In this document: piece by piece, positions 51,890-64,000 of the stretch | Position numbering within the stretch: position 1 is the first letter of the stretch | How the letters are laid out: the number at the start of each line of letters is the position of its first letter | Assembly: GCF_003391095.1 (NCBI RefSeq) | Contig: NZ_CP031447.1 | Span: 744,001 to 808,000 of the forward strand | DNA length: 64,000 bases | DNA from: Austwickia chelonae | GTDB lineage: Bacteria; Actinomycetota; Actinomycetes; Actinomycetales; Dermatophilaceae | Direction: 5' to 3' | Position numbers and translations under genes: made by a program | The notes under the pieces: model-generated | The model's input: the letters and a program-made list of their open reading frames with translations, nothing else | Database searches by the model: none | Told to the model about the DNA's origin: nothing

Positions 51890-54800
51890 TCAGCGGTCGA
51901 AGGACTCCCGCATCAGCGCAGCCCGCTCGATCTCGTGCTGCTTGTGCGAGCCGGTGGACGGAGATGCCGAAGCAGCCCGGGAGACCACCCGGATCGGCCG
52001 TTGTTCACCGTTCTCGGCCAAGGACTGCGGAAGATTCACCATCATGAAGGGCCAAGCACCCTGGTTCGCGGGTTCATCCTGCACCCAAACCAGTTCGGCG
52101 TTCGGGTAATGCTTCACGATCTGGGCGATCTCTCGGCCAGGAGTCGGGTAGAGCTGTTCCACCCGGACGATGGCGGTCGCACCGTCCTGGCGCTGCTCGC
52201 GTTCCGCCTCCAAGTCGTAGACCACCCGCCCGGAGGCGAGCAGCACCCGGGTCACCGCGCCCCCGTCCAGCGGTGCCTTGTCATGGATCGCCGGTTCGAA
52301 GGTTCCGCTGGTGAAATCTTCGACTGCGCTGGTCGCCGCGCGTAGGCGCAACAACTGCTTCGGGGTGAACACGATCAGGGGTTTGCGCGGCCGGGAGTAG
52401 GCCTGGCGACGTAGCAGGTGGAAATAGCTGGCCGGAGTGCTCGGATTGGCAACGGTCATGTTGTCCTGGGCGCACAACTGGAGGTACCGCTCGATCCGCG
52501 CCGAGCTGTGGTCCGGCCCCTGCCCCTCATAACCGTGGGGGAGGAGGAGCACGACGGAACTACGCTGACCCCACTTCTGTTCGGAACTGGAGATGAACTC
52601 GTCGACGATGGTCTGAGCGCCATTGGCGAAGTCACCGAACTGGGCCTCCCAGCAGACCAGCGCGTCAGGACGTTCCACCGAGTACCCGTACTCGAAGCCC
52701 ATGGCGGCGAATTCGGACAGCAAGGAGTCGTACACCCAGAAACGGGCCTGGCCGTCGCCCAGGTAGAGCAGCGGCGTCCATTCCTCGGCACTGGTGCGGT
52801 CGATGAGCACGGCATGCCGTTGCACGAAGGTGCCCCGTCGGGAGTCCTGACCGGCCAGCCGCACCGGAGTCCCCTCGCTGAGTAACGACCCGAAGGCGAT
52901 CAGCTCGCCCATTCCCCAGTCGATCCCGCCCTCGCGTGTCATCTGGGTGCGCTTCTCCAGCATGCCGCGCAGCTTCTTGTGCGGTTCGAAGCTCTCCGGC
53001 CAGCTGGTCCACAGGTCACCGATCTTGTGCAACAACCCGGTGCTGATCGCGGTCGAATGACTGCGATGCGCCCGGACCTCGTCCTCGACCTGTGCTTCGG
53101 GCCGCTCCAAACCGTCGATCTCGGTGGTTGCTCCCACCGACGGAGCCGCAGGCTTGGCCTTGGCTGCTTCCTTGGTCTCCAGGAAGACCTGCTCCAGCCG
53201 TCCCTGGTAGTCCTGCAAGGCGGCCTGGGCGTCCTCCAGGGTGATGTCGCCGCGACCGACCAACGCTTCGGTGTACAGCTTGCGGACACTGCGCTTGGCC
53301 TCGATGAGCTTGTACATCAGTGGCTGTGTCATCGAAGGGTCGTCGCCCTCGTTGTGGCCGCGACGCCGGTAGCAGATCAGGTCGATGACGACGTCCTTGG
53401 CGAACTTCTGACGGAACTCGTAGGCCAGCTCGGCGACCCGGACACAGGCCTCGGGGTCGTCGCCGTTGACGTGGAAGATCGGCGCCTGGATCGTCCGGGC
53501 CAGGTCGGTGGAGTACACCGAACTGCGTGAGCTCGTGGGGGCAGTGGTGAATCCGACCTGGTTGTTGACCACGACGTGAACGGTTCCGCCGGTGCGGTAA
53601 CCTCGCAGCTGGCTCAACTGCAAGGTCTCCAAGACGACACCCTGGCCGGCGAAGGCCGCATCACCGTGCAGAAGCAGCGGCAGAACGGTGAACTCCTCAC
53701 CGTGCAGGTCCAGCCGGTCCTGCTTGGCCCGCACGATGCCTTCCAGCACCGGGTTGACCGCTTCCAAGTGGCTGGGGTTCGCCGCCAGGTAGACCTTCGT
53801 GGTTTTCCCGTCCTCGGACTCGAAAACGCCTTCGGTACCCAAGTGGTACTTCACATCGCCCGAACCCTGGACGCTGCGCGGGTCCTGGGTTCCTTCGAAC
53901 TCGCGGAAGATCTGCGCATAACTCTTCCCGGCGATATTGGCCAGGACGTTGAGCCGGCCGCGGTGCGGCATGCCGATGCACACCTCGTCCATGCCGTCCT
54001 CGGCGGCCCGGCACAACACCCGGTCGAGCAAGGCGATCACGGACTCGCCACCCTCGAGACTGAACCGCTTCTGCCCGACGTACTTCGTCTGCAGAAAAGT
54101 CTCGAAAGCCTCAGCAGCATTGAGCCGGCGCAGAATACGCATCTGCTCGTCCCGGCTGACCTTCTCCGCCTTGACCTCGATCTTCTGCTGCATCCACAAC
54201 CGCTGATCCGGGTCCTGAATGTGCATGTACTCCACGCCGATGGTGCGGCAGTAGCTGTCCCGAAGCACATCCAGGATCGCCCTGAGCGTGGCTCGCTCGG
54301 TGCCACCGAAACCACCGGTGGCGACTTCCCGGTCCAGATCCCACAAGGTCAGCCCGTACGTCTCCAGTGCGACGTCGTCGTGCCGTCGCATCCGGTACTC
54401 CAACGGGTCGGTGTCCGCGAGCAGATGACCGCGGACCCGGTAGGCGTGGACCAGCTGCTGCACCCTCGCTGCCTTGGACAGGTCGTCCTCATGGCTCGCC
54501 ACCAGGTCGCGCTTCCACCGCACCGGCTCGTACGGGATACGCAGGCTGCGATAGATCTCCTCGTAGAAACCGTCTTCGCCGAGCAACAGACGGTGGATGA
54601 TCCGCAGGAAATCGCCCGAAGCCGCACCCTGAATGATGCGGTGGTCATAGGTGCTGGTCAGCGTGATGATTTTGCTGATCCCCTGGCGGGCGACGGTCTC
54701 CAGACTCGCACCCTGCCACTCCGCCGGATAGTCCAGCGCGCCGGCACCGATGATGCACCCCTGGCCCTGCATCAGCCGAGGCACCGACTGCACGGTGCCG

Positions 54801-55789
54801 ATCCCACCAGGGTTGGTCAACGAGATCGTCGTCCCGGCGAAATCATCGACCGTCAGCTTGTTGCCGCGAGCCTTGCGGACCAGCTCCTCGTAGGCATTCC
54901 AGAATTGGAAGAAGTCCATCGTCTCGGCCGCTTTGATCGACGGCACCACGAGGCTTCGCGTGCCATCGGGCCGCGGAAGGTCGATCGCCAACCCGAAATT
55001 GACATGGGCAGGGCGGACCAACTGTGGCTTGCCCTTCTCGTCAACCCGGTAGCTGCAGTTCATGTCGGGCAGTTCGGCGAGCGCCTTCACGATCGCGTAC
55101 CCGATGATGTGGGTGAAGCTGATCTTCCCACCGCGAGTGCGCTGGAGATGCTGGTTGATCTGGATCCGGTTGTCGATCATCAACTTCGCCGGGATCCCAC
55201 GAACGCTGGTCGCGGTAGGTACCTGCAGCGAAGCATCCATGTTCGTCACGATGCGAGCAGCCGGGCCCTTGATCGCTTTGATCTTCTCGGCATCCTGCAC
55301 CTGAGGGGGGCTCACCTGAGGGGTGTCGCGAGGGGTCGGGGTCTTGCCCATCGGCACCGCAGGCGCGGCCACCGGCTCCTTCTGCTGAGCAGGAGGACGT
55401 TGAACCGTCGTACTCCGAGGCGGAGAAGCAGGTTTTCCCTTACCGTCCTTTTCCACGGGTTCCTTCTGATCGGAAGCGGCCTGGGATGTCGCCGTGGCTG
55501 ACGATGGCCTGACCGTGCTCTCGGAGGTTCGCGCACCGGCCTCGGTCCGGGGCGCGGCCTGGCCGTCCGCGCTCGCCGTCGGAGGGGTGGACTCGGGGGC
55601 GGACGCCGCAGTGGCCGCAGCCGTGGGAGCGCTGTTCTCACGGCGAGGGGCATACCCGTCGAAGAAGGCCCACCATGCTTTGTCGACGGACTCCTTGTCC
55701 TGCAAGTACTGCTCGTAGAGCTCGTCGACGAGCCACTGATTGGGCCCGAAGCTGGCGGTGGGATCGTTCGGAGCGGGCAATTCTGCCAC
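51890..55789 (-). CDS. kgd: Multifunctional 2-oxoglutarate decarboxylase/dehydrogenase E1-E2 (KGD)
   Basis: A 1299-residue actinobacterial SucA. Order of domains: a short N-terminal SucA helix (SFGPNQWLVDELYEQYLQDK), an Ala/Pro/Ser-rich linker (about 45-165), an E2-type acyltransferase core (about 180-400) ending in the catalytic YDHRIIQGAASGDFL, and a ThDP E1 domain with VCIGMPHRGRLNV, GDAAFAGQGVV and the transketolase C-terminal part. There is no lipoyl domain, as normal for KGD, which works with a separate E2. The GTG at 55789, preceded by AGAGGCGAG, was chosen over 55846 because family proteins begin just before this helix. Confidence 0.95.
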   Translation of the reverse strand: MAELPAPNDPTASFGPNQWLVDELYEQYLQDKESVDKAWWAFFDGYAPRRENSAPTAAATAASAPESTPPTASADGQAAPRTEAGARTSESTVRPSSATATSQAASDQKEPVEKDGKGKPASPPRSTTVQRPPAQQKEPVAAPAVPMGKTPTPRDTPQVSPPQVQDAEKIKAIKGPAARIVTNMDASLQVPTATSVRGIPAKLMIDNRIQINQHLQRTRGGKISFTHIIGYAIVKALAELPDMNCSYRVDEKGKPQLVRPAHVNFGLAIDLPRPDGTRSLVVPSIKAAETMDFFQFWNAYEELVRKARGNKLTVDDFAGTTISLTNPGGIGTVQSVPRLMQGQGCIIGAGALDYPAEWQGASLETVARQGISKIITLTSTYDHRIIQGAASGDFLRIIHRLLLGEDGFYEEIYRSLRIPYEPVRWKRDLVASHEDDLSKAARVQQLVHAYRVRGHLLADTDPLEYRMRRHDDVALETYGLTLWDLDREVATGGFGGTERATLRAILDVLRDSYCRTIGVEYMHIQDPDQRLWMQQKIEVKAEKVSRDEQMRILRRLNAAEAFETFLQTKYVGQKRFSLEGGESVIALLDRVLCRAAEDGMDEVCIGMPHRGRLNVLANIAGKSYAQIFREFEGTQDPRSVQGSGDVKYHLGTEGVFESEDGKTTKVYLAANPSHLEAVNPVLEGIVRAKQDRLDLHGEEFTVLPLLLHGDAAFAGQGVVLETLQLSQLRGYRTGGTVHVVVNNQVGFTTAPTSSRSSVYSTDLARTIQAPIFHVNGDDPEACVRVAELAYEFRQKFAKDVVIDLICYRRRGHNEGDDPSMTQPLMYKLIEAKRSVRKLYTEALVGRGDITLEDAQAALQDYQGRLEQVFLETKEAAKAKPAAPSVGATTEIDGLERPEAQVEDEVRAHRSHSTAISTGLLHKIGDLWTSWPESFEPHKKLRGMLEKRTQMTREGGIDWGMGELIAFGSLLSEGTPVRLAGQDSRRGTFVQRHAVLIDRTSAEEWTPLLYLGDGQARFWVYDSLLSEFAAMGFEYGYSVERPDALVCWEAQFGDFANGAQTIVDEFISSSEQKWGQRSSVVLLLPHGYEGQGPDHSSARIERYLQLCAQDNMTVANPSTPASYFHLLRRQAYSRPRKPLIVFTPKQLLRLRAATSAVEDFTSGTFEPAIHDKAPLDGGAVTRVLLASGRVVYDLEAEREQRQDGATAIVRVEQLYPTPGREIAQIVKHYPNAELVWVQDEPANQGAWPFMMVNLPQSLAENGEQRPIRVVSRAASASPSTGSHKQHEIERAALMRESFDR

Positions 55790-55991
55790 GGCGGACTCGC
55801 CTCTTTCGTATGTCGCCGGTGACGGCCAGGACACATGACGAACCACCCGACGACATCGCTGGTCCGCCGGTGCCAGGCTACCCCGCGCCGGGCGGCTGGT
55901 GCGGTTCCGGAAGAAGGCGAACGAGGTCGAAGGGCTGCTGATCCCACTGATCGGGACATGTTCTCCCCCCCGTGTCCGCTTTGGGGCGGAT

Positions 55992-55997
55992 TAGGAT
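55992..55997 (+). promoter_or_regulatory. -10 box of the CNNM operon, near-leaderless start
   Basis: TAGGAT ends 10 nt before the ATG at 56008, giving a leader of only about 3-4 nt. This supports 56008 as the start rather than upstream in-frame codons. Confidence 0.45.
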
Positions 55998-56007
55998 GGC
56001 GACCACT

Positions 56008-57360
56008 ATGACCGAGTGGCTCCTCGTCGGCGCGGGGGTCCTGTTGACCCTGGGAACGGCCGTCTTCGTCGCGGCCGAGTTCTCGCTGGTGGCTCTCGAC
56101 CGCTCCAGCGTGAGTCATGCGGCCGAGAACGGGGACGCTGCTGCGCGTGCGGTACTGCCGTCGTTGACGGCCTTGTCCACACAGCTGTCCGGTGCCCAGG
56201 TGGGGATCACTCTGACGACGCTGGCCCTGGGATATGTCGCCACCCCCTCGGTGGGGGCCTTGCTGGCCGGTCCGGTCGCGACTGTGGGGGTGCCCGTGGA
56301 GAATGCGCCGGCGGTGGCCTCCGGGGTGGCGCTGGCCGTGGCGACGTTGTTCTCGATGGTCGTCGGAGAGCTGGTGCCCCAGTTCCTGGGAATATCCGTT
56401 CCCTTGGCGACGGCGAAGGTGGTGGCGGTCCCGGTCCGGTTCTTCACCGCGATGGTTCGTCCGTTGATCGTGGCGTTGAACGGTTCGGCCAATGCTGTGC
56501 TGGAGTCCTTCGGAGTGCGTCCGCAGGAGGAGCTTTCCGGTGCCCGTACCCCTCAGGAGCTGGCGTCGATCGTGCGGCGCAGTGCGCAGGTGGGCACTTT
56601 GGACGAGGACCTGGCCACCCGGGTGGCCAGGTCCTTGGATTTCGGCTCCCGCACTGCGGCGGATGTGATGACGCCGCGGGTGCGCTGCGTGGCGGTGGAA
56701 CGTACGGATTCGGCGGCCGACGTGGTGGCCACTGCGTGGAGAACCGGACATTCCCGTTTTCCGGTGCTCGGCGACGACTGGGACGACGTGGACGGCGTGG
56801 TGCACGTGAAACAAGCGGTGTCGGTGCCTCACGAGCGGCGGGAGTCGGTTCCGGCGTCTGGGCTGATGAGTTCCCCGGTTCTGGTTCCCGAGACGATCGG
56901 TTTGGAGCCACTGCTGGGTCTATTGCGTGGTGGTGGCCACCAGTTCGCTGTGGTCGTCGACGAATACGGCGGTACTGCAGGGGTGGTCACCTTGGAGGAC
57001 GTGGTCGAGGAACTGGTGGGGGAGGTTGCCGACGAACATGACCGGCAGTTGACCTCGGCCCGTCGTGATGTGCGTGGGTGCTGGACGGTCCCGGGGTCCT
57101 GGCGGGTGGACGAGGTCCGTGAGCGGGTAGGCGCAGACCTACCGGAAGATGCGTCCTACGAGACGGTGGGCGGCTTCATGATGGCGCTGCTGGGCAGGAT
57201 CCCTTCGGTGGGGGACGAGGTCGAGATCGTGGGCTGGCACATCCGGGTGGAGGGGATGGACGGACGTCGGGTGGAGCGGGTACGTCTCCTGCCGGTCGAT
57301 CCCATCGCCCAGCAATCCGACGAGGCAGCTTTGCCTCGAGAGACCGGAGACCCACGGTGA
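56008..57360 (+). CDS. CNNM/CorC (HlyC-type) family membrane protein 1
   Basis: A 450-residue protein. An N-terminal DUF21 membrane domain (about 1-190, starting MTEWLLVGAGVLLTLGTAVF) has four helices and the GELVPQ motif; a CBS pair follows (about 205-335), then a CorC_HlyC domain (about 350-435, FMMALLGRIPSVGDEV). Family members influence Mg2+/Co2+ transport. Its stop overlaps the GTG start of a paralogue by 4 nt; tandem CNNM genes are common in actinobacteria. Confidence 0.92.
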   Translation: MTEWLLVGAGVLLTLGTAVFVAAEFSLVALDRSSVSHAAENGDAAARAVLPSLTALSTQLSGAQVGITLTTLALGYVATPSVGALLAGPVATVGVPVENAPAVASGVALAVATLFSMVVGELVPQFLGISVPLATAKVVAVPVRFFTAMVRPLIVALNGSANAVLESFGVRPQEELSGARTPQELASIVRRSAQVGTLDEDLATRVARSLDFGSRTAADVMTPRVRCVAVERTDSAADVVATAWRTGHSRFPVLGDDWDDVDGVVHVKQAVSVPHERRESVPASGLMSSPVLVPETIGLEPLLGLLRGGGHQFAVVVDEYGGTAGVVTLEDVVEELVGEVADEHDRQLTSARRDVRGCWTVPGSWRVDEVRERVGADLPEDASYETVGGFMMALLGRIPSVGDEVEIVGWHIRVEGMDGRRVERVRLLPVDPIAQQSDEAALPRETGDPR

Positions 57361-58394
57361 CCCCGGGGATGGCCTTGGCGATCTCCGTGCTGCTTCTGAT
57401 GGGGAATGCCTTCTTCGTGGGCGCGGAGTTCGCGGTGATGACGGCCCGGCGGAGTCAGCTTGAGCCTCTGGCACAGGAAGGACGGCGGTCGGCTCAGCTG
57501 GCTCTGGTCGCTGTGGAACATGCGTCGAGCTTGCTGGCCTGTGCGCAGTTGGGTATCACGGTCTGTTCGCTCTTGTTGGGAGCCTTGGCCGAGGACGCCA
57601 TCCATCATCTGGTGGCGCCGATGATTGCCCGGACGGGGCTCCCCGAGGGTGTGGCCCATGTGGTGGGGCTGTCGATGGCTTTGCTGATCGTGGCGTACTT
57701 CCATGTGGCCCTGGGGGAGATGGTGCCCAAGAACCTGGCCATCGCTGGGCCGGACCGAGCAGCCTTGTGGCTGGCACCGGCGTTGTTGTACGTCACCCGG
57801 GCCTTGGGGCCGGTGATCCGGGTTCTGGAATGGGTGGCCAAGTCCTTGGTCCGTGTCCTGGGGGTGGAACCTCAGGACGAGGTGAGTAGCGCGTATACGG
57901 CCGAGGAGGTCGACCGTATCGTCGTGGAATCCGCCAAGGAAGGACTTCTCGGGTTCGACCAGCATGGTCTTGCCCGGCGGGTGCTGGCCTTCGGGGAGCG
58001 CGTCGCGGCTGATGTCGCGGTTCCCTCGACCGACCTGGTGACCCTTGCCCGCGGGTGTACTCCGGAGGATGTGGAGCGGGTCGTGGCGAAGCACGGGTTC
58101 AGCAGGGTGCCCATCACGGACCTTTCCGGTGACCTGGCGGGCTATGTGCATCTGAAGGATGTGCTCTACGCCGATGAGGTGGAGCGGTCACAGACTCTGC
58201 CGTGGAAGAGGGTGCGCCCGCTGGCGACGGTGTCACCTCATGACGAGATCCAGGATGTCTTGGTGAGTATGCAGCTCAGCGGGGCTCATCTGGCCAGGGT
58301 CGTCGATCGTGACGGCGTGGTGACCGGGGTGGTCTTCCTGGAGGACGTCTTGGAGGAACTGGTGGGTGAGGTCACCGACTCGACCCGTCGGTGA
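57357..58394 (+). CDS. CNNM/CorC family membrane protein 2
   Basis: A 345-residue paralogue of the upstream gene with the DUF21 domain (about 1-190, FFVGAEFAVMTARRSQLEPL, GEMVPKNLAIA) and a CBS pair (about 210-335), but no C-terminal CorC_HlyC domain: it stops at VEDVLEELVGEVTD-like sequence. It probably acts with, or as a dimer partner of, the upstream protein. GTG start in a GTGA overlap. It converges on the SorC regulator gene with a 56-nt gap. Confidence 0.92.
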   Translation: MTPGMALAISVLLLMGNAFFVGAEFAVMTARRSQLEPLAQEGRRSAQLALVAVEHASSLLACAQLGITVCSLLLGALAEDAIHHLVAPMIARTGLPEGVAHVVGLSMALLIVAYFHVALGEMVPKNLAIAGPDRAALWLAPALLYVTRALGPVIRVLEWVAKSLVRVLGVEPQDEVSSAYTAEEVDRIVVESAKEGLLGFDQHGLARRVLAFGERVAADVAVPSTDLVTLARGCTPEDVERVVAKHGFSRVPITDLSGDLAGYVHLKDVLYADEVERSQTLPWKRVRPLATVSPHDEIQDVLVSMQLSGAHLARVVDRDGVVTGVVFLEDVLEELVGEVTDSTRR

Positions 58395-58450: not shown

Positions 58451-59416
58451 TCAGGGCAGGGCGAGGACTGCTTGAGCGGTCGCGGTGTCGGTCACGAGCA
58501 GATCGACGTAGCCGCCGCGGAGCGCGCCCTGGATCGCCTGGGCCTTCTCTGTCCCGGCGGCGACGGCGACGACCTTGTCTATGGACTTCAACCGGGCCAA
58601 GGGGACGGCCATCACCCGGTCGCACAAGGAAGCCTGGATGTGGCGCCCGTTCGCATCGAAATGATGTCCGGAGATGTGGCCGACTGCGCCTAGCCCGGCC
58701 AAGTAGTCGCCTTCGGCGGGGGCCAACCATCCTTGGAAGATCGGGCCGGACACTCCGGCGCGGTCGATCGCCCCGATCCCGACGATGGCCACGTCGGCGT
58801 GGGAAGCCAGCGCCAAGGCATTGGCCACGGACTCCTCCCTGCGCAGCGCTTGGGCGAGCCGGGGCGAGCCGACCAGCAGCGGCGCAGGCATGAGTCGGTA
58901 GGTCGCGCCGAAACGTTCGGCGATGCGCCGGGTCACGTCCGGGGAGTCGGTGACCGGGCTGTCCTTCGACAGCGCGCCGATCATCTGGACGACGCACAAG
59001 TCGTGCAGCGACTGGTGCGGAAGCTGTTCGACCACGGCGCTCAAGGTGGTACCCGAGGAAGTGGCGAGCACAGTGGCTTGCCGACACACATCGACGAGGA
59101 CCTCTGCGGCGGTGGACGCGACAGCGGTGAGCGGGTTCATTCCTTCACCGCATTGGGCGACCCGGGCGTCACGCAGACCGAACCGGGAGCAGAGCGACTC
59201 CTCGAGGGCCATGGCGCGTTCGAGTGGGTGGCCGATGACGAAACGGACGATCTTCCGGCGCCGGGCCTCGGAGAGCAGCCGGGAGATCCGGGAACGGGAG
59301 AGGCAGATCCTCTTCCCGATCTCGTCCTGACTGAGCCCGTCCAAGTAGTACCACCGGGACACCTGGGCGAGGAGAGAGAGATGTTCACGAGCTTCCTGCA
59401 CGGGCCAAGTGTGCAC
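58451..59416 (-). CDS. SorC-family sugar-binding transcriptional regulator
   Basis: A 321-residue regulator. The HTH (about 25-60: LSQDEIGKRICLSRSRISRLL) precedes a SorC effector domain related to sugar-phosphate isomerases, with GTTLSAVVEQL, VVQMIGAL and LVTDTATAQAVL motifs. SorC proteins bind phosphorylated sugars and regulate sugar catabolism. It diverges from the lactonase-kinase operon, so it is the obvious local regulator. The GTG at 59416 lies inside a candidate operator (59412-59424); GTG 59401 is an alternative start. Confidence 0.92.
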   Translation of the reverse strand: MHTWPVQEAREHLSLLAQVSRWYYLDGLSQDEIGKRICLSRSRISRLLSEARRRKIVRFVIGHPLERAMALEESLCSRFGLRDARVAQCGEGMNPLTAVASTAAEVLVDVCRQATVLATSSGTTLSAVVEQLPHQSLHDLCVVQMIGALSKDSPVTDSPDVTRRIAERFGATYRLMPAPLLVGSPRLAQALRREESVANALALASHADVAIVGIGAIDRAGVSGPIFQGWLAPAEGDYLAGLGAVGHISGHHFDANGRHIQASLCDRVMAVPLARLKSIDKVVAVAAGTEKAQAIQGALRGGYVDLLVTDTATAQAVLALP

Positions 59417-59615: not shown

Positions 59616-60608
59616 ATGTCGTTCGTCCGCACCATCAAAGGTGACGTCGACCCTTCGACCCTCGGCGTGGTCAATGCCCACGACCATCTCATCCGCGTTG
59701 GTGCCGGTGAGGTCTACATCGACGGCGATCACATGCTCGACGACGTCGACAAGGCAGCACAGGAGGCCACCTACTTCGTCGAGGCCAGCAAGAACTGGTC
59801 CACCGGCGGCACCGTCATCGACATGTGCCCGGCCGCCTGCGGGCGTTCGATCACCAAGCTCAACGAGGTGGACGACAAGGTCGAGGACCTGCAGGTCGTC
59901 GTCGCTTCCGGGTTCCACCAGCAGAAGGTCTACCTCGAGGTCCACACCACCTGGGTGTACCAGTACACCGTCAACCAGATCGCCGATCTCCTCATCGCCG
60001 ACATCTGTGAGGGCGTCGACGAGTACGACTACATGGGCCCCTTGGTGAAGCGCAATGCCTCCAAAGCCGGCGTCCTGAAGTGGGCCACGGCCTACGGGAG
60101 GATCACCGACTGGGAGAAGAAGACCGGTGAAGCGGTCGTCATCGCCCACAAGGAGACCGGCTGCCCGATCAACACCCACACCTCGGCCGGAACCGCGGCC
60201 CTCGAGCAGGCCCGGTTCCTCCTCGGATTGGGTGCCGTCCCGGAGAAGACCGCCATCGGGCACGTCCAGCGCAATGCTGATGTCTGGTACCTCGAGCAGA
60301 TCATGAAGCTCGGTTGCTACCTCGAGCTCGATGGCACCAACCGCATCAAGTACCTACCCGACCACCACCGGGTCAACCTGGTCCGTTCCTTCGAGGCGGA
60401 CGGCTTCGGCAAGCAGGTCCTCCTGGGTACCGACTCCGGAAAAGCTTCGTACCAGAAGGTCTACGGGTCGGTCACCGGCATCGACTTCGACCCGGCCGTC
60501 TTCGCCCCCCGCCTCATCGACGAGGGCGTCGACCGCGAGTACGTCCAGGACCTCCTGGTCGGCAACGCCCGTGAGTTCTTCGCCTTCGCCGATGGGAAAC
60601 AGCAGTGA
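59616..60608 (+). CDS. Phosphotriesterase-family lactonase
   Basis: A 330-residue TIM-barrel metalloenzyme. The metal site is complete: HxH at H22/H24 (VNAHDHLI), bridging Lys K155 (GVLKWATAYGRI), H188 (NTHTSAG), H216 (GHVQRN) and D273 (GTDSGKASY). The pattern AGV-K-YGRIT is shared with the lactonase branch of COG1735, which opens five- and six-carbon sugar phospho-lactones. In the ascorbate pathway the equivalent step uses the unrelated UlaG. AAAGGAG precedes the ATG. It overlaps the UlaD-like gene by 4 nt. Confidence 0.88.
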   Translation: MSFVRTIKGDVDPSTLGVVNAHDHLIRVGAGEVYIDGDHMLDDVDKAAQEATYFVEASKNWSTGGTVIDMCPAACGRSITKLNEVDDKVEDLQVVVASGFHQQKVYLEVHTTWVYQYTVNQIADLLIADICEGVDEYDYMGPLVKRNASKAGVLKWATAYGRITDWEKKTGEAVVIAHKETGCPINTHTSAGTAALEQARFLLGLGAVPEKTAIGHVQRNADVWYLEQIMKLGCYLELDGTNRIKYLPDHHRVNLVRSFEADGFGKQVLLGTDSGKASYQKVYGSVTGIDFDPAVFAPRLIDEGVDREYVQDLLVGNAREFFAFADGKQQ

Positions 60609-61264
60609 CCTCCCCGAGGTTGCAGATCGCGCTCGACACTCCGGACCTCCCCAGCGCACTGCGGCCACTGCAGCAGGCCGCGCCGGCCATCGACGTCATC
60701 GAGGTCGGGACGGTGCTCTGCCTGGCCGAAGGGATGTCCGCAGTGCGTGCCGTCCGAGCAGCCTTCCCCGAGACCCCCGTCCTGGCGGACATCCGGATCG
60801 CGGAGGCCGGGAAGATCCTCTCCACGATGGCTTTCGAGGCCGGTGCTTCCCTGGTGTCGGTCGTCGCCGGAGCCAGCCTGGAGACGGTCCGCCAGGTCGT
60901 CGCCGTGGCCCGGACGCACGGCGGTGAGGTGCAGGTTGAGCTCGCCGATGAGTGGTACGACCCCGAGCGGGCCCGCACCTGGCGGGAACTCGGTGTCGAG
61001 CATGTCATCGTCAAACGTTCCCGGGACCGGGAAGCCTCCGGCGACCTCTCCTGGGGAGCGGAGGATCTCGCCCGGGTCGACGAACTGGCCCAGATGGGTT
61101 TCACCGTCACCATCACCGGCGGGATCACCGCCGCTGATCTGGCCACCTTCGCCGGGCATCCGGTCGGTATCGTCATCGCCGGACGCTCTGTCGTCGGCGC
61201 CGCCGATCCACTTGCAGCCGCCCGCACGCTCAAGGACGAGATGACCAGGGTGTGGGCCGGATGA
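60605..61264 (+). CDS. ulaD: UlaD-like decarboxylase (3-keto-L-gulonate-6-phosphate type) with altered motif
   Basis: A 219-residue OMP-decarboxylase-superfamily barrel that aligns almost without gaps to E. coli UlaD as I recall it: QIALD (D11), IEVGT (E33), VELA (E112), VTITGGI and IAGRS. The canonical D-x-K-x-x-D motif (D62, K64, D67) reads D-I-R-I-A-E here, so K64 is Arg and D67 is Glu, and the residue at H136 is Lys (K137). Metal ligands are kept. It probably acts on a 3-keto sugar-acid phosphate or performs a related enolate reaction, but the exact chemistry is in doubt. Confidence 0.85.
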   Translation: MTSPRLQIALDTPDLPSALRPLQQAAPAIDVIEVGTVLCLAEGMSAVRAVRAAFPETPVLADIRIAEAGKILSTMAFEAGASLVSVVAGASLETVRQVVAVARTHGGEVQVELADEWYDPERARTWRELGVEHVIVKRSRDREASGDLSWGAEDLARVDELAQMGFTVTITGGITAADLATFAGHPVGIVIAGRSVVGAADPLAAARTLKDEMTRVWAG

Positions 61265-62862
61265 GCGCACTCGCAGCTGTCACCGATCTTCCGGAGGACG
61301 CAGGCTCTGCCGCGGTTCCCTGCGTCGAGCTCGGTATCTACGAGAAGGCGCTGTGCTTCAACGGCTCCTACGACGACCTCTTCGCCCAGGTGGCGAGGGG
61401 AGGTTTCGCCTTCATCGACCTGTCCGTCGACGAGAGCGCCGAGCGCGCGGCCCGGCTGAACTGGACGATGGCCGAGCGTGTGGCCGTCCGTCAGGCAGCA
61501 GCCCGCGCCGGTATCGCCTTGGGCGGTCTGTGCCTGTCCCTGCACCGCAGGGTCGGACCAGGTAGTAGTGACCCGGTGGTTCGCGAGGAAGCCCGTACGG
61601 TGCTCTTCCAAGGGATCGACCTGGCTGCGGACCTGGGCATCCCCGTGGTGCAACTCGCCGGTTACTACAACTATTACGAGAAGGCGCATCCTCAGGCACG
61701 CGAGTTCTACGTCGACTGTCTCCGCAAAGGGGCCGAGCACGCAGCCCGTCGCGGGATCCTCCTGGGTATCGAGAATGTCGACGGTCACGACATCGACTCG
61801 GTCTCCGAGGCGCTGGCCGTGGTCGAACAGATCGATTCGCCGTGGTTGCAGTTGTACCCGGATGTCGGCAATATCGCCGAGCAGGGGCTGCCGATGGAGG
61901 CCGAGCTCGCCCGGGGCGAAGGCCGGATGCTGGCGATCCATGTCAAGGACGTTCGCCGTGGCGAGCCGCGTCGAGTGCCGATGGGCGGCGGGATCGTCGA
62001 CTGGGATGTCGCCTTCGCCGAGTTGGCACGGCAGGGCTGGTCCGGTCGGATGATGATCGAGATGTGGAATGACGACGCCGAAGGTGGCCTCGAGCGGGCG
62101 GTCTGCGCGCGGGAGTTCATCGAGGGTCGGCTTGCTCATGCCGGGGTCGTCGTCTCCACCACGCGGGTACCTGCGGGCCAGGAACTCCCGGCTTCGGTCG
62201 TACGCCTTCGTGAAGAGGTCTGCCGGGGCAACCTGGAACTGCCCAAGCACGGTCTGGTGGCCTGGACCGGGGGCAATCTGTCGGCGCGTGACCCACAGAC
62301 CGGTCTGATCGCGATCAAACCTTCGGGGATGCTCTACGACGACATGAAACCCACCGACATGGTGGTGGTCGATCTCGACGGCAAGGTGGTCGCTGGGGAT
62401 CGCGGTCCCAGCTCGGACACCGCATCCCATCTCGCGGTGTACCGGGAACGACCGGACGTGATGTCGATCGTGCACACCCATTCGCGGTATGCCACGGCCT
62501 TCGCTGCCGTGGGAGAGCCGATCCCGTGCTGTCTGACCGCCATCGCCGACGAGTTCGGCGGTGACATCCCCTGCGGAGGATATGCCTCCATCGGCGGGGA
62601 CGAGATCGGCGCCGAGATCGTCCGTTCCATCGGACGTTCCCCGGCCATCGTGATGCGCCAGCACGGCGTCTTCACGGTCGGACGTAACATCGACAAGGCC
62701 CTGCAAGCTGCCGTCATGGTCGAGGACGTCGCGGCGACCGTGGCGATCGCGCGTGGTCTTGGCGCGGTCACCCGGCTGCCCGAGGAAGAGATCGAAGCGA
62801 ACTGGGACCGCTACCAGAACCGCTATGGCACCGCGAACGCGAGCAAGGGCGTGACACGATGA
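61261..62862 (+). CDS. Fused UlaE-like 3-epimerase and UlaF/AraD-like 4-epimerase
   Basis: A 533-residue two-domain enzyme. Residues about 20-295 match L-xylulose-5-phosphate 3-epimerase (ELGIYEKAL, CLSLHRR, GIPVVQLAGYYNYYEK, LYPDVGN, AIHVKD, IEMWN). Residues about 312-525 match L-ribulose-5-phosphate 4-epimerase/class II aldolases: GNLSARD, IKPSG, SSDTASH, zinc site H405-T-H407 plus H468 (RQHGVF), and AD-EFGGDIPC. A 15-20 residue Val/Thr/Pro linker joins them. Together they convert L-xylulose 5-P via L-ribulose 5-P to D-xylulose 5-P. The frame has no internal stop; the ATG at 61261 overlaps ulaD. Confidence 0.88.
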   Translation: MSALAAVTDLPEDAGSAAVPCVELGIYEKALCFNGSYDDLFAQVARGGFAFIDLSVDESAERAARLNWTMAERVAVRQAAARAGIALGGLCLSLHRRVGPGSSDPVVREEARTVLFQGIDLAADLGIPVVQLAGYYNYYEKAHPQAREFYVDCLRKGAEHAARRGILLGIENVDGHDIDSVSEALAVVEQIDSPWLQLYPDVGNIAEQGLPMEAELARGEGRMLAIHVKDVRRGEPRRVPMGGGIVDWDVAFAELARQGWSGRMMIEMWNDDAEGGLERAVCAREFIEGRLAHAGVVVSTTRVPAGQELPASVVRLREEVCRGNLELPKHGLVAWTGGNLSARDPQTGLIAIKPSGMLYDDMKPTDMVVVDLDGKVVAGDRGPSSDTASHLAVYRERPDVMSIVHTHSRYATAFAAVGEPIPCCLTAIADEFGGDIPCGGYASIGGDEIGAEIVRSIGRSPAIVMRQHGVFTVGRNIDKALQAAVMVEDVAATVAIARGLGAVTRLPEEEIEANWDRYQNRYGTANASKGVTR

Positions 62863-63809
62863 CGACCTACGACCTGGCCACTTTCGGTGAGGGACAGATC
62901 AGGCTGACCGTCGGCAAAGGCGACCGGTTGAGCACAGCGACCCAGCTACGGATGACTGCGGCGGGTTCCGAGGCCAATGTCGCCGGCTTGCTGGCCCAGC
63001 TTTCCCGGCGTACGACCTGGGCGTCGGTGATCCCGACGACTGATCTGGGTACTCGGGTGATGGGGGAGTACCGATCCGTCGGAGTCGACCTGTCCCATGT
63101 CATCCGGACCGGTGATGAGCGGATCGCTCTGTACTTCATGGAGCCCGGTGATCCGCCCATGCCGGCTCGGGTGACCTACGACCGGTTGCACACCAAGTTC
63201 CGGGAGATCACTCCGGAGACTTTCGACTGGGACGGATTGCTGGATACCCGGGTGCTCTTCGTCACCGGTATCACGGCCTCGCTGACCGAGCAGACTGCAG
63301 CCGTGGTCACCCATGCGGTGGAGCAGGCGGCAGCTCGGGGGGTCGATGTGGCTCTGGATGTCAACTATCGCAGCTTGCTGTGGAGTCCTGAACAGGCGCG
63401 TTCGGTGTTGGAACCGCTGCTGGACAAGGTGTCGATCCTCTTCTGCTCTCGGGCCGACGGTACGAAGGTCTTCGGGATCGATGGGGACGGGCCCACGGTG
63501 AACCGCCTCCTGTACGAGTGGAGCGGAGTGCGCCATGTGGTGTCGACCGATGCCACTGCGGGCGTCTACTACTGCGGTGTCGAGGGCCAGGAGATCTACG
63601 AGGTGCAGCCGGTGCCGGTGATCGACCGTCCTGGAGCGGGAGATTCCTTCGTGGCGGGTTGTCTGCACGGCTATCTGGACGGAGAGGTGAAGGCCGGGAT
63701 CGGTTATGGCCTGCGGACCTCGAAGTTCGCGCTGACCCATCACGGTGATCTCACCCATGTCTCGGCGACCGAGTTGGCGATCCCGACGACCACGGACATC
63801 GTGCGCTGA
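62859..63809 (+). CDS. PfkB-family sugar kinase
   Basis: A 316-residue ribokinase-type kinase. The N-terminal GEGQIRLTVGKGDRL and SEANVAGLLAQL regions bind substrate; the C-terminal DRPGAGDSFVAG signature has catalytic base D262. The TDATAGVYYCG loop contacts ATP. It resembles 2-keto-3-deoxygluconate kinases in its substrate region (AGSEANVA, LGTRVMGEYRSVGVDLSHV). It may phosphorylate the sugar acid or lactone that enters this pathway. It overlaps the fusion gene by 4 nt and ends the operon seen here. Confidence 0.9.
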   Translation: MTTYDLATFGEGQIRLTVGKGDRLSTATQLRMTAAGSEANVAGLLAQLSRRTTWASVIPTTDLGTRVMGEYRSVGVDLSHVIRTGDERIALYFMEPGDPPMPARVTYDRLHTKFREITPETFDWDGLLDTRVLFVTGITASLTEQTAAVVTHAVEQAAARGVDVALDVNYRSLLWSPEQARSVLEPLLDKVSILFCSRADGTKVFGIDGDGPTVNRLLYEWSGVRHVVSTDATAGVYYCGVEGQEIYEVQPVPVIDRPGAGDSFVAGCLHGYLDGEVKAGIGYGLRTSKFALTHHGDLTHVSATELAIPTTTDIVR

Positions 63810-63930: not shown

Positions 63931-64000
63931 TCGGCCGTATCGATTCGCCTTCACGCGGCTCCGGGTCATGTGGCCGCGCTATTTTCCACAACGATGTGAA

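Follow-up and report, generated by a model that had tools for sequence, protein, structure and literature searches.

The two consecutive epimerases that lead from L-xylulose 5-phosphate through L-ribulose 5-phosphate to D-xylulose 5-phosphate are normally separate proteins. UlaE of Escherichia coli (3cqh/3cqi, L-xylulose-5-phosphate 3-epimerase) is a stand-alone dimer, and the 4-epimerase AraD is a tetramer. In the E. coli ula operon (UlaG, UlaABC, UlaDEF), decarboxylase, 3-epimerase and 4-epimerase are encoded in that order, with a one-base overlap of ulaE with ulaF.

The locus described here lies in a 64,000-nucleotide stretch of Austwickia chelonae DNA (contig NZ_CP031447.1, positions 744,001 to 808,000; hereafter called the window). 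It has predicted counterparts of these three enzymes in the same order, but the two epimerases are fused. A single 533-codon frame encodes both domains, with a short flexible linker between them (Table 1). The original prediction, made from the sequence alone, knew of no described example of such a fusion, and we found none in the open-access literature.

Table 1. The fused epimerase gene, its parts and its neighbours (window coordinates)
Feature	Position	Strand	Basis or detail
SorC/DeoR-type regulator with sugar-binding domain, divergent	58451..59416	-	profile matches
Phosphotriesterase (PTE)-family lactonase-like protein	59616..60608	+	profile matches
UlaD-like decarboxylase (OMPdecase/HUMPS family), DxRxxE replacing DxKxxD	60605..61264	+	profile matches, alignment
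Fused L-xylulose/L-ribulose-5-phosphate 3-epimerase and L-ribulose-5-phosphate 4-epimerase (predicted)	61261..62862	+	533 aa; domain profiles, structure matches, relatives
UlaE-type 3-epimerase domain, aa about 20-298	61318..62154	+	metal ligands E171, D201, H227, E267
Interdomain linker, aa about 299-311	62155..62193	+	no in-frame ATG/GTG/TTG; coding constraint
4-epimerase domain of class II aldolase fold, aa about 312 to 530-533	62194..62862	+	conserved D386, H405, H407, H468, D430; Y522 probably the acid
PfkB-family sugar or sugar-acid kinase	62859..63809	+	profile matches
MFS sugar/acid transporter, first codons only; runs past the window	63969..64000	+	G000:C1:807968-809368

Two complete domains in one frame

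Called mechanically, the open reading frame begins at a GTG at 61252 and encodes 536 residues. The likely start is instead the ATG at 61261, as originally proposed. This ATG shares the four bases ATGA with the stop codon of the upstream gene, and the frame that it opens runs for 533 residues until its own stop ends at 62862.

Pfam and NCBIfam both bear out the division of this frame into a UlaE-like and an AraD/UlaF-like half. AP_endonuc_2 matches residues 41-276 (8e-44) and Aldolase_II residues 318-492 (1.3e-53), each over nearly the full length of the profile. At the subfamily level, the N-terminal half scores 320.6 bits against PRK13209 (L-ribulose-5-phosphate 3-epimerase), just over the cut-off of 317, and the C-terminal half scores 317 bits against PRK06557 (L-ribulose-5-phosphate 4-epimerase), far over the cut-off of 251. 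Both halves fall short of the stricter equivalog models (TIGR00542 for the 3-epimerase, 233.6 versus 272; TIGR00760, the AraD equivalog, for the 4-epimerase, 152 versus 389). Among 4-epimerases, the second domain, originally labelled UlaF-like, sits closest to the PRK06557 subfamily and not to UlaF of E. coli.

The closest structures tell the same story. By sequence, the N-terminal half has its best PDB match in E. coli UlaE (1.3e-60) and the C-terminal half in AraD of the same species (4e-35), and a structure search was led by the same two folds (3cqi, UlaE, TMt 0.96; 1jdi, AraD, TMt 0.84). The Austwickia protein shares with UlaE the whole N-terminal domain, its fold and its four metal ligands, but carries a C-terminal partner. 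With AraD it shares the fold, the zinc histidines and the counterparts of D76 and D120. It differs from AraD in a shorter middle loop, which lacks the E142 region, in its C-terminal tail (RYGT.AS.GV) and in being joined at its N-terminus to a 3-epimerase.

Are both active sites intact? Alignment places UlaE E155, D185, H211 and E251 at E171, D201, H227 and E267 of the fusion, and AraD K42, D76, H95, H97, D120 and H171 at K353, D386, H405, H407, D430 and H468. Every one of these residues is kept; their functional roles we take from established knowledge of the two enzymes. The fuculose aldolase FucA has a glutamate, E73, at the position of AraD D76, so the aspartate at this position (D386) favours an epimerase over an aldolase. 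AraD E142 and H218 have no clear counterpart; in AraD, H218 and the acid Y229 are contributed by the adjacent subunit. The YG motif of the tail pairs AraD Y229 with Y522, although the automatic alignment placed S528 there and the C-terminal alignment is ambiguous; Y522 is most likely the counterpart of the Y229 acid. With metal ligands and main acid/base residues conserved, the view that both halves are catalytically competent is well supported at the sequence level. The original prediction of two complete active sites essentially holds at the level of residue conservation, and neither half looks like a dead domain.

An AlphaFold model of the fusion, built with 30 related sequences, has two confident domains (mean pLDDT 86.7). 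Residues 301-307 of the linker have pLDDT values below 50 and the whole-model pTM is 0.60, so that no fixed joint arrangement of the domains is predicted. This bears on the earlier suggestion that L-ribulose 5-phosphate is channelled directly from one active site to the other. In its favour, the fused activities follow one another in the pathway, and three genera have kept the fusion. True channelling would, however, need a fixed geometry that the flexible linker and the model do not supply, and separate proteins suffice in most relatives. We consider channelling very unlikely.

Recurrence and descent of the fusion

The fusion is genuine and inherited. Five more distinct sequences have it, each time as a single frame uninterrupted by a stop: two other genomes of the genus Austwickia (95% and 81% identity), two from a second genus in the same family (67%) and a Micropruina metagenome-assembled genome (72%). 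The near-identical named matches are from Austwickia chelonae and Austwickia sp. At 1e-30, a fourth genome of the Austwickia genus gave no match.

The linker itself is translated and under constraint. Between the window and its 95% relative (Austwickia chelonae), 9 of 14 linker codons differ, and all of the differences are at third positions, with none at first or second positions. Moreover, no ATG, GTG or TTG occurs in the window from codon 285 to codon 332, that is, up to the conserved 4-epimerase core at codon 333. We therefore rejected the idea that the window genome makes the 4-epimerase separately from an internal start. At two loci (L003 and L032) GTG or TTG codons do lie near the junction, and an internal start is possible there. 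A search of the window's own genome at E 1e-3 brought up neither domain a second time. Given this, and given that the second domain has no start of its own, the fusion protein is probably the sole source of both activities.

A sequencing or assembly error, or a chance in-frame readthrough, could in principle have joined two genes. The relatives lend this some plausibility: they have two adjacent genes, and in several a single TGA interrupts a frame that both genes share (L006, L033, L034 and L078). An error does not explain a frame that recurs in five other distinct sequences from independent assemblies, a linker that has changed only synonymously, or a second domain that has no start from which to be made. 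The frameshift or assembly fault named at the outset as a danger to the prediction is, on this evidence, vanishingly improbable.

In the split relatives, the same two domains are encoded by adjacent genes, and no more than about 140 bases separate the stop of the first from the start of the second. This arrangement is found in Propionibacteriaceae, in Actinobaculum, in some Actinomyces and in two genomes of the window's own family. The split operons of Cutibacterium, Propionibacterium, Acidipropionibacterium and Actinobaculum have the same gene content and order as the Austwickia operon, with about 52-77% identity per domain, and differ in having the 3- and 4-epimerase as two genes where Austwickia has one. 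In the four same-frame loci named above, a start follows the TGA by 3-36 bases, an arrangement resembling the stage that would precede fusion.

The fused state is derived, since the closest relatives have this operon with the epimerases on two neighbouring genes. In maximum-likelihood trees built independently for the 3-epimerase and the 4-epimerase domain, all six distinct fused sequences fall together (support 96/97 and 98/89), and a single fusion event is the simplest reading. The Micropruina genome lies inside the fused group, which makes transfer of the fusion between families likely.

We saw no further, independent fusion among samples of 396 genomes of the order, 396 of the phylum and 213 of the family to which the Actinobaculum genome belongs. 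A set of 301 genomes of Chloroflexota, the phylum of genome G192, gave no match of any kind and is little informative. In a search of plasmids, the best 25 places all had the two pieces as separate genes.

An operon that departs from ula

The PTE-family gene, the UlaD-like gene, the fusion and the PfkB gene run in one direction with successive four-base overlaps. The MFS transporter gene starts about 160 bases past the PfkB gene, and the SorC-type regulator gene is divergent and upstream. The same genes surround the epimerases in nearly all relatives; in the operons of Micropruina and of the second genus (L032 and L072) the PTE-family gene is missing and the fusion is retained. Further out in the window, on the minus strand at 51890-55846, a 1318-residue frame resembles by eye the multifunctional 2-oxoglutarate decarboxylase/E1-E2 fusion of actinobacteria, and CBS-type membrane proteins, also recognized by eye, neighbour it at 55972-58394.

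Compared with the E. coli ula operon, a PTE-family protein, a PfkB kinase, an MFS carrier and a SorC regulator stand here in place of UlaG and the UlaABC phosphotransferase system (PTS). All three marks of a classical ula operon are missing: UlaG (NF008688) has no match in the genome at E 1e-3, the UlaABC PTS is not in the operon, and the decarboxylase lacks the UlaD motif DxKxxD. Elsewhere in this genome, an ascorbate-type PTS IIC gene lies about 165 kb before the start of the window and away from the operon (G000:C1:578063-579286; L110:4249-5814), with an IIA-like gene and an HPr-like frame nearby.

The decarboxylase bears on what enters the pathway. It is 44% identical to E. coli UlaD and, like the PTE-family protein, scores under the NCBIfam cut-offs for named functions. 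In every operon member examined, about 50 distinct sequences, DxRxxE replaces DxKxxD, so that K64 and D67 of the known 3-keto-L-gulonate-6-phosphate decarboxylases are absent; H136 of UlaD is mostly lysine across the operon family. The conserved Arg/Glu pair suggests an altered chemistry or substrate. Literature searches on the UlaD motif and on PTE-family phospho-lactonases returned nothing useful. The change of motif leaves the entry substrate uncertain, and L-xylulose 5-phosphate may not be supplied at all. Convention would point to ascorbate or 3-keto-L-gulonate; a different keto-acid is a serious rival.

In an alternative reading, the two domains act on other phosphorylated ketoses, in an operon that breaks down not ascorbate but another sugar acid or a lactone and whose altered UlaD-like enzyme sets the specificity. 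The DxRxxE motif and the usual lysine at H136 across the family fit such a pathway, as do the MFS carrier and PfkB kinase in an operon without the ula PTS, and the sub-threshold scores of the UlaD-like and PTE-family proteins. In both domains, nevertheless, the residues of UlaE and AraD are retained and the scores exceed the subfamily cut-offs, and we regard this alternative as rather unlikely.

A probable bifunctional pentose-phosphate epimerase

Our preferred reading, to which we give a probability of about 70%, is that the fusion is a bifunctional enzyme that arose once, by the joining of neighbouring genes, and that runs both epimerisations in sequence. A 3-epimerase gene followed by a 4-epimerase gene would have lost the stop codon and the gap between them. 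In the product, the N-terminal TIM barrel would bind a divalent metal through E171, D201, H227 and E267 and interconvert L-xylulose 5-phosphate and L-ribulose 5-phosphate. Zinc bound through H405, H407 and H468 would serve the C-terminal domain in interconverting L-ribulose 5-phosphate and D-xylulose 5-phosphate, together with D430 and probably with a tyrosine, Y522, of a neighbouring subunit. Overall, L-xylulose 5-phosphate would pass by way of L-ribulose 5-phosphate to D-xylulose 5-phosphate and so into the pentose phosphate pathway. The SorC-type regulator would control the operon. The likeliest benefit would be a fixed 1:1 dose of two consecutive activities and their closeness to each other.

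Since AraD is a tetramer and UlaE a dimer, the fusion may assemble through both kinds of contact into a larger particle. A bolder proposal builds on this. The fusion would complete a hitherto undescribed route, free of a PTS, for degrading a sugar acid or lactone (MFS carrier, PfkB kinase, PTE-family lactonase and the Arg/Glu relative of UlaD). It would form a large assembly, held together by dimers of its 3-epimerase half and tetramers of its 4-epimerase half, in which L-ribulose 5-phosphate is concentrated or channelled. Taken as a whole, this is a distinctly unlikely combination.

On the preferred reading of a bifunctional enzyme, Austwickia and its fused relatives would possess a natural enzyme that carries out two successive pentose-phosphate epimerisations on one chain. 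The comparison further reveals an operon, conserved in actinobacteria, with a decarboxylase that differs from UlaD in the known catalytic motif. Moreover, an ancestor-like, unfused arrangement survives in close relatives, so that the effect of the fusion can be tested by direct comparison.
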